In this document: positions 43,977 to 46,115 of the stretch, piece by piece
Layout of the letters: the number at the start of each line of letters is the position of its first letter
Position numbering within the stretch: the first letter of the stretch is position 1
NCBI GenBank assembly: GCA_024640025.1
Contig: JAHEFT010000006.1
Coordinates: forward strand, 1-49,073
DNA length: 49,073 nt
Reading direction: 5' to 3'
DNA from: Chromatiales bacterium
GTDB taxonomy: Bacteria; Pseudomonadota; Gammaproteobacteria; Xanthomonadales; SZUA-36
Program-made: the position numbers and the translations under genes
Notes under the pieces: model-generated
Databases searched by the model: none
Told to the model about the DNA's origin: nothing
The model's input: the letters and a program-made list of their open reading frames with translations, nothing else

Positions 43977-44837
43977 GTGTCAAATCTCCAAAACATTCGC
44001 CGTGCTTTCGACGAAATCGCCAGCCATTATGACGAGCACGCGGCGCTTGAGCAGGAAGTTTGCAACCGCCTGCTGGAGCGGACCTCGTTCAACCGGGTTT
44101 TGCCCGCGAGAATTCTGGACCTGGGCTGCGGAACCGGTTTTGGGACTGCAAAGCTAAAAAAGCTGTTCCGGAAGGCACAGGTGACAGGGCTGGATATCTC
44201 GATGGCCATGTTGACCGGACTGCGTCGCCGCTCGGGTCTGCTCAAGCCATTGAGCGGTGTTTGCGGGAACATTGGGGCGCTGCCATTTGCCACCCGATCG
44301 GCAGATATGGCGGTCGCAAACCTGGCCACTTACTGGTGCACTGATCCCAAGGCGATGTTTTCCGAATTTCGCCGGGTTCTCCGACCCGACGGCATGCTCC
44401 TCATCAGCACTTTTGGCCCCGCAACGCTAAGGGAATTGCGAGAATCCTGGTCAAGTGTGGAGTCGGAAGTGACCTTGCCGGAGTTTCCCGACCTGGTAGA
44501 GATTGGAAATGCACTGGTGGCGGCGGGGTTCAGAGAGCCCGTGATGGACATGGAGATCATCACCCTGAGTTACCCGGACCTGGGCGCGATGTTCGCAGAA
44601 CTCGAAGCAACCGGAACCTCACTCCTCATCGAAGGCTGGGACCAGGGGTATGGGGATGCGAGCGCTTTGAAACAGGCATATTCTGCCTTCGTGACGGACG
44701 CAAGGTACCCGCTCAGTTTCGAGATCATCTACGGGGTCGCTTTCGGCCCACAGGAGGGCCAGCCCATGAAAACGCCTGATGGAGACGTCGTAACGTTCTC
44801 GGTTGATGCCCTGCGTGGGAGCCGAAAAGTCCAGTAG
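43977..44837 (+). CDS. bioC: Malonyl-ACP O-methyltransferase BioC
   Basis: GTG start (VSNLQNIRRAFDEIASHYDEHAALEQEV); ARILDLGCGTGFGTAKL, ANLATYWCTDPKAMFSEFRRVLRPDGMLLISTFG. Confidence 0.9.
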   Translation: MSNLQNIRRAFDEIASHYDEHAALEQEVCNRLLERTSFNRVLPARILDLGCGTGFGTAKLKKLFRKAQVTGLDISMAMLTGLRRRSGLLKPLSGVCGNIGALPFATRSADMAVANLATYWCTDPKAMFSEFRRVLRPDGMLLISTFGPATLRELRESWSSVESEVTLPEFPDLVEIGNALVAAGFREPVMDMEIITLSYPDLGAMFAELEATGTSLLIEGWDQGYGDASALKQAYSAFVTDARYPLSFEIIYGVAFGPQEGQPMKTPDGDVVTFSVDALRGSRKVQ

Positions 44838-44845
44838 GCAACACT

Positions 44846-44874
44846 TTGCCAAAACCAACCACCTGGGCTATGAT
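44846..44874 (+). promoter_or_regulatory. Sigma70-type promoter TTGCCA-N17-TATGAT just after bioC
   Basis: 5/6 match at -35 and -10 with an ideal 17-bp spacer. Confidence 0.65.
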
Positions 44875-44880
44875 GAACGA

Positions 44881-45030
44881 AGGGCAAAAACTATTTTTAA
44901 TTGCTTAAGGAATCGATCAAACCGGGTGTGCCGCCCCCCCTTGCGGCATGTCTGGTTCGAGACCGGTGTTCCCCTTGCACCGTTCTCACGAAAGGGCCGG
45001 CTCACCCCTTGCCGGCCCTTTCACCTTTTT
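44881..45030 (+). ncRNA. Candidate sRNA with three tandem hairpins each exposing a CCCCTT loop
   Basis: HP1 TGCCGC-CCCCCCTT-GCGGCA; HP2 GAGAcCGGTG-TTCCCCTTG-CACCGtTCTC; HP3/terminator GAAAGGGCCGGC-TCACCCCTT-GCCGGCCCTTTC followed by ACCTTTTT. A promoter lies directly upstream. Confidence 0.65.
44990..45030 (+). terminator. Rho-independent terminator, 12-bp stem
   Basis: GAAAGGGCCGGC/GCCGGCCCTTTC then TTTTT at 45026-45030. Confidence 0.85.
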
Positions 45031-46115
45031 CAGGACAGGTGTGGCCGCGCCAGGTAGTCATGTGATTGCATCTCGATCAGGCGGCTGGCGGTCCGCTGAA
45101 ATTCAAATTCCAGTTGCCGTCCCCGGTACAGTTCCCTTATCGGTACGGCGGCGGAAATCAGCAGTTTAACGTTGCGATCATAGAATTCATCCACCATGTT
45201 GACGAATCTTCGGGCCGCATTTGCGTCGTCTTCCCCGAGTTGCGGCATATTGCTCAGTACAACGGTGTTGAAAGCACGCGCAATTTCGATGAAATCGATG
45301 TTGCCGCGGGGTTTTTTGCAAAGTTCTTCAAATTCGAACCAGATGACGCCGTCACCACGCCTTCGGGCCTGAAAATTACGGCCGTTGATATCGAGGTAAT
45401 GGTTGAGTTCGAATTCGGCCGTCATGCGGTTGAAACTCTCGGTCATCACGCGATCGGCTGCCTCGTCCAGCGGATAATGGAATATTTCCGACTGTTCCAG
45501 GATACGTAGCCGGAAATCCGTTTTGCCGGACAATTCGATCACCCGGGTATGCTGCTTGATCAATTCGATGACCGGAAGGAATTTGGCCCTCTGCAAGCCA
45601 TCTTCATACAGCCGGTCCGGTGCAATATTCGACGTGGTCACGAGCGTGACACCGTTGAGGAACAGGGCTTCGAGCAAGCCGCTCAGCAGCATGGCATCCG
45701 CGATATCAGAGACAAAAAACTCGTCCAGGCAGAGCACGCTGCATTTTTGGGCCCAGTCGGCGGCGATTCTGGGTAGCGGGTCGCGAACCTCCCCAAGGTC
45801 ACCGAGACTCCGGTGGACTCTTTGCATGAACCGGTGAAAGTGTATCCGTTGTTTCCGTTCAACCGGCAGGTGCTCGTAAAACAGGTCCATCAACCAGGTT
45901 TTACCACGCCCAACCGCTCCCCAGATATACAGGCCGGATACGGTTTCAGGTCGCTTGCGGCGGAGTCTGTCCAAAAACCTTGGGTCGCGCTGTCGTTGCA
46001 GGGCGTGCCACAGGGCATCCAGCGCTTTTAAGACACGTTCCTGGTCGGGATCGGAAATAAAATCGCCCTTGCCGGCTAGATTCCGATAGTGGCTCAGCGG
46101 AGACGGGTGGCGCAA
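45030..46115 (-). CDS. zapE: AFG1-family ATPase / cell division protein ZapE
   Basis: GLYIWGAVGRGKTWLMDLFYEHLP, FHRFMQRVHRSL, LCLDEFFVSDIADAMLLSGLLEALF, LVTTSNIAPDRLYEDGLQR. Confidence 0.95.
   Translation of the reverse strand: MRHPSPLSHYRNLAGKGDFISDPDQERVLKALDALWHALQRQRDPRFLDRLRRKRPETVSGLYIWGAVGRGKTWLMDLFYEHLPVERKQRIHFHRFMQRVHRSLGDLGEVRDPLPRIAADWAQKCSVLCLDEFFVSDIADAMLLSGLLEALFLNGVTLVTTSNIAPDRLYEDGLQRAKFLPVIELIKQHTRVIELSGKTDFRLRILEQSEIFHYPLDEAADRVMTESFNRMTAEFELNHYLDINGRNFQARRRGDGVIWFEFEELCKKPRGNIDFIEIARAFNTVVLSNMPQLGEDDANAARRFVNMVDEFYDRNVKLLISAAVPIRELYRGRQLEFEFQRTASRLIEMQSHDYLARPHLS

Follow-up and report, generated by a model that had tools for sequence, protein, structure and literature searches.

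The bioC–zapE interval

The region of interest lies between two convergent genes of the window (the whole stretch of 49,073 nucleotides that was analysed), and its features are as follows.

43977..44837, + strand: bioC (malonyl-ACP O-methyltransferase), upstream neighbour; TIGR02072 match of 184.2 bits, slightly below the cut-off of 184.95
44846..44874, + strand: sigma-70-like promoter TTGCCA-N17-TATGAT, read from the sequence
44881..45030, + strand: predicted sRNA transcript of ~150 nt, from its fold, covariance-model matches and lack of a conserved reading frame
44920..44957, + strand: hairpin 1 (HP1), 15-bp stem, loop CCCCCCUU at 44935-44942, from fold and covariation
44959..44987, + strand: hairpin 2 (HP2), loop UCCCCUU at 44970-44976, from fold and covariation
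44990..45022, + strand: hairpin 3 (HP3), intrinsic terminator stem, loop UCACCCCUU at 45002-45010, from fold and covariation
45026..45030, + strand: U run of the terminator, read from the sequence, directly next to the stop codon of zapE, which lies on the opposite strand
45030..46115, – strand: zapE, downstream convergent neighbour; NF040713 match of 436 bits

The promoter-like site begins 8 bp past the bioC stop codon, with a –35-like TTGCCA (44846-44851), a 17-nt spacer and a –10-like TATGAT (44869-44874). Direct reading confirms this element of the original prediction, and the site is the only sigma-70-like one in the 500 bp around it (44700-45200), where 0.1 is expected in shuffled sequence. 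The pattern TTGCCA-N17-TAT[GCA][AG]T is also found 5′ of the RNA at loci L034, L035, L037, L038, L040 and L042, each time with a different spacer sequence; in more distant genera the promoter of the RNA is less clear. We placed the transcript start 6–7 nt past the –10 box and the transcript end at the U run. The leader preceding HP1 had been described as AU-rich and unstructured. It is A/U-rich and not conserved, but weak self-pairing is possible within it.

The minimum-energy fold of 44881-45030 has a computed free energy of –66.5 kcal/mol, compared with –42.3 ± 3.7 kcal/mol for shuffled sequences (z = –6.5), and none of 200 shuffles was as stable. The three hairpins that had been proposed are real by this measure and the coordinates given for HP2 and HP3 stand, but HP1 is longer than first drawn, occupying 44920-44957 rather than 44929-44948. 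HP3 returned no match from a terminator scanner because its 9-nt loop exceeds the limit of 8 set in that program. The sequence CCCCUUGC is present exactly in all three hairpins of the host RNA. A search of 257 Gb of genomes for the exact three-motif pattern gave 31 matching places, 23 of which fold into these three hairpins, and the arrangement is therefore not a matter of chance. The other eight are unstructured or repetitive and come from Armatimonadetes, Chloroflexi, Kuenenia, Thioalkalivibrio and others.

Invariant loops on drifting stems

Most members of the host's family were found to carry the region when relatives were searched at the DNA level. The covariance search that had been suggested for checking the prediction matches 34 of the 39 genomes of this uncultured family, including 21 of the 22 of good quality, with one strong copy per genome. 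The family is placed in the order Lysobacterales/Xanthomonadales, partly from the presence of sX13 in a sister family. The five misses can be explained by assembly, since zapE is absent from four of these assemblies and the contig of the fifth (G002) ends 32 bases beyond the zapE match. Strong matches in an order-wide search with the model are confined to the host's family; weak matches in families f2 and f12 are G+C-rich terminators and not the RNA described here. A class-wide search of 369 genomes returned only the host's own genome at E <= 1e-4, and the RNA is therefore not class-wide.

The position of the RNA between bioC and zapE is conserved, and this synteny is kept in 14 genera. Of 30 family loci, 28 have a BioC relative upstream of the RNA and 23 have a convergent zapE adjoining it, the rest being contig ends or cases with a more distant zapE. 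A convergent zapE adjoins the RNA in the four divergent members as well.

Several members depart from the common form. A reduced, two-hairpin version beside zapE, with loops UUUUCCCCCUUUG and ACCCCUU, is present in genus g7 of the host's family (L107 1944-2025, – strand; L108 2002-2083, – strand; L109 1945-2026, + strand). In genome G026 (L111 2023-2142, – strand), HP1 and HP3 are intact and the HP2 stem is kept, while the C loop of HP2 is lost, making this a natural loop mutant. The C-loop pattern is largely lost at the same place in G013. Genus g8 (L052, L051, L053, L049, L059 and L060) has an extra small hairpin just 5′ of HP1, for example GGCCCGACAGGGCC or GACCCGAAAGGGTC, which lacks a C-rich loop.

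We aligned 24 relatives in the sense orientation, all of them with three hairpins, and derived the structure from their folds. In this alignment 94.1% of cells are paired, a figure that falls to 38–47% once the partners are slid by 1–3 columns. Compensatory double changes are found in 17 of 36 base pairs, and cells changed on both sides number 86, compared with 32 in shuffles. The hairpins contribute to different degrees: (i) in HP1, both sides have changed in 10 of 13 modelled pairs, the 5′ stem has 21 distinct sequences in the 24 species, and loop columns 22–28 have zero entropy; (ii) in HP2, both sides have changed in 5 of 11 modelled pairs (e.g. GGUG..CACC, GACGC..GCGUC and AAUGC..GCGUU) around an invariant loop and (iii) in HP3, 100% of cells are paired, double changes occur in two pairs and ACCCCUU is invariant. 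Entropy is 0.0 in the CCCCUU cores of all three loops, and 28 of 30 members have CCCCUU three times. The loop core that is invariant family-wide is CCCCUU, followed mostly by R-C (extended form CCCCUURC). Loops that are not C-rich and stems that do not covary would have been the expectation had the proposed structure been wrong; the relatives display the opposite, and the claim that a CCCCTT-type loop is the conserved unit on differing stems is borne out. With its loops frozen across 14 genera while the stems drift, the family amounts to a clean natural experiment.

The same alignment bears on the question of strand. Read as + strand RNA, it contains 106 G·U and 12 A·C pairs, as expected for a + and not for a – RNA, and in relatives too a U run follows the last hairpin on this strand only. 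Together with the promoter, the pair counts and the U run assign the RNA to the + strand.

Two readings in which there is no independent RNA gene can be weighed against these data. The first is that the region is the 3′ UTR or terminator region of bioC, with a strong terminator serving bioC and zapE in both directions and no function in trans. HP3 is indeed a terminator, and the convergent zapE lies right at its end. HP1 and HP2, however, are not needed for termination and nevertheless covary beneath invariant loops, the RNA has its own promoter in close relatives, bioC ends ~700–1000 nt upstream of the RNA in many genera, and the minus-strand side of HP3 lacks a U run. We consider this explanation very unlikely. 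The second is that the locus encodes a small protein. Some members do have short ORFs, and several of the closer ones could be translated into an LxxxR-SHERAG-like peptide, but the longest closed ORFs in relatives span 0–39 codons in differing frames and none is closed in the host. Relatives also differ by indels of a single base, both in loop 1 and where HP2 joins, which together with the compensatory pair changes speak against a protein, a reading to which we attach almost no credence. An uncatalogued sRNA gene between bioC and zapE, read from the + strand, is thus well supported by comparative sequence analysis, and its independence, as originally proposed, is upheld by covariation, G·U strand asymmetry, synteny in 14 genera and the promoter in close relatives.

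Possible targets of the loops

The best explanation of these features, and on the present analysis a probable one, is an sRNA that acts in trans by pairing of its loops with G-rich translation starts. According to this model, transcription of a stand-alone RNA of ~150 nt would start at a dedicated promoter and stop at HP3, and rigid stems would present three C-rich loops of almost the same sequence (core CCCCUU, extended CCCCUURC). In several mRNAs, a G-rich AAGGGG or GGGG element in or close to the ribosome-binding site could pair with each of the loops, and this pairing would be expected to block the start of translation, as with sX13, ar14 (NfeR1) and RoxS/RsaE; for sX13, NfeR1 and RoxS the precedent is experimental. 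Hfq is encoded in all good genomes of the family.

Computed energies are consistent with such pairing. Duplexes between the loops and AAGGGG have energies of –9.1 to –9.5 kcal/mol, and those with GCAAGGGG or GUAAGGGG reach –14.4 kcal/mol; at these sites the loop duplexes are predicted to be stronger than that of the ribosome's own anti-SD. The loops favor AAGGGG-type sites over AAGGAGG, whereas the ribosome has the opposite preference, and mRNAs with G-run starts would therefore form the natural target subset.

None of the target searches singles out particular mRNAs. In the host's own genome, GYAAGGGG is present 2–14 nt before an ATG 20 times, compared with 15 in a reversed control, which is not a clear enrichment, and none of these sites resembles a clear gene start. 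We also counted purine 6-mers upstream of gene starts taken from a simple script, for which the counts are rough: AAGGGG appears 6 times at starts (0.8 expected), and the plain SD motif AAGGAG, with 12 (0.7 expected), is more enriched. Comparable counts come from the genome of a family that lacks the RNA. GGGG lies in the –20 to –3 region of 8% of called genes in 800 kb of G022, and 12 of 17 genes retain it at their starts in G014, but neither figure sets GGGG apart from plain SD motifs. Neither hfq nor pilZ is a conserved target across the family.

It is also conceivable that the C-rich loops act not on mRNAs but as a sponge or decoy, for a G-rich sRNA or for a protein with affinity for single-stranded, C-rich sequence. 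Three repeated identical loops have the appearance of a decoy as well, and the lack of target enrichment in our searches is in keeping with one. Against this, all of the well-studied RNAs that we found with the same architecture act on mRNAs (PMC3771888, PMC10746234, PMC4409812), and no candidate partner was seen. We regard a decoy as unlikely and favor pairing of the loops with translation starts.

Relationship to other C-loop RNAs

The host RNA gives only chance matches in Rfam, both at the gathering cut-offs and at E values up to 10. It represents a real and previously uncatalogued sRNA family, one that resembles known C-loop RNAs in architecture. The original prediction had left open whether it is a homolog or an analog of sX13 and the alphaproteobacterial cuckoo RNAs; the comparisons below support the analog and not the homolog, given that RF02232 and RF02344 are unmatched, the locus is not at polA and CCUCCUCCC is missing.

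The closest likeness is to sX13 (RF02232) of the Xanthomonadaceae, which belongs to the same bacterial order and also has an unstructured 5′ end and three stable stems. Each sX13 stem carries a 4C/5C loop, the third stem is the terminator, and the RNA represses mRNAs with 4G motifs near their starts (PMC3771888); the host RNA likewise has three stems with a C-rich (4C/5C) apical loop each, the last being the terminator. A further trait of sX13 is that it represses 4G-motif mRNAs independently of Hfq. The two differ in location (downstream of polA for sX13, between bioC and zapE for the host RNA) and in loop sequence (AUCCCCUGG, CCUCCCCAAG and CCUCCCCCUGG in sX13, CCCCUURC in the host family). 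The sX13 target hfq has a 4G motif, whereas in 30 genomes of the host family no GGGG lies between –70 and +20 relative to the point where the Hfq domain starts. The RF02232 model (gathering cut-off 50 bits) matches neither the host RNA, at gathering or at E up to 10, nor the other members tested; in a positive control, the same search recovers sX13 at the polA locus of sister family f2 with 124.5 bits. Identity as sX13 is ruled out by the absent model match, the locus away from polA and the hfq genes without GGGG.

A diverged ortholog of sX13, or a descendant of a common C-loop ancestor, relocated from polA to zapE, is a separate question. The shared order and three-hairpin plan would suit such a history, and no C-loop RNA follows polA in the host or in the family-member loci examined (the host polA is on other contigs). 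Our model also scores sX13 and the polA-linked RNA of family f9, though weakly, at 25–29 bits. Homology with sX13 is not established by these scores because chance terminators in whole genomes of the order also reach 25 bits, and the unmatched RF02232 model, the differing loops and the unshared synteny all weigh against orthology, which we judge improbable.

Family f9, of the same order, has C-loop RNAs of its own. One is a three-hairpin RNA downstream of polA with CUCCCUCCCUAGG-type loops (L136 2737-2853, + strand; also L117, L133 and L139), of which the L136 copy scores 43 bits relative to an ar14 cut-off of 58.8; this RNA may possibly be a link between sX13 and ar14-type RNAs. The second, scoring 38–51 bits with our model and unmatched in Rfam, comprises hairpins GGGGUUCCCCCCUUCCCC and GAGGUUCCCCCCUUGCCUC plus a plain terminator of its own, with UUCCCCCCUU in both loops and a promoter of the TTGACA type (L093 1955-2082, – strand; also L092 and L094–L098, with shorter forms at L099 and L100). 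Its neighbour is a gene for an acyl-CoA dehydrogenase, in many cases together with a tRNA gene, and not zapE.

We tentatively raise a broader scheme, which we hold to be possible though doubtful, in which C-loop sRNAs form a type of regulator that recurs in Lysobacterales and can be replaced. The zapE-linked RNA of the host family, with its own CCCCUU code, would serve in place of a polA-linked sX13-like RNA, and a sister family would have kept the polA-linked RNA together with a second, CCCCCCUU-loop RNA. If this is true, the 'code' by which C-loop RNAs recognize ribosome-binding sites varies from lineage to lineage. In any case, this well-supported sRNA family enlarges a class of which few lineages have been studied by experiment, and the model and alignment are supplied for seeking its expression in existing metatranscriptomes.

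Likenesses extend beyond the order. NfeR1, of the ar14 family, has three hairpins in which an identical, ultraconserved anti-SD motif is unpaired and redundant while the stems differ strongly (PMC10746234), and in the host RNA, similarly, one loop motif is shared by the three hairpins on differing stems. The ar14/cuckoo RNAs (RF02344), however, belong to another class, the Alphaproteobacteria, and have the loop motif CCUCCUCCC, which is present in 0 of 30 members of the host family. Identity as ar14/cuckoo is ruled out by this absence and by the RF02344 covariance search, in which the host RNA was unmatched. RoxS/RsaE of the Bacillales have a repeated, CCCCUU-containing element, CCCCUUUGUU, that pairs with the SD, and in RoxS it inhibits translation via the SD of ppnKB (PMC4409812); these RNAs differ in phylum and in fold. 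The NmsR siblings of Neisseria have three stem-loops, and their UC-rich single-stranded regions pair with target SDs (PMC5362039), but they have two anti-SD regions only, one of them between stems, which are UC-rich and not CCCCUU. Neither likeness is reflected in an Rfam match for the host RNA. Taken together, these comparisons suggest that, in several separate families, repeated loops rich in C and directed at G-rich translation starts either emerged or were retained.
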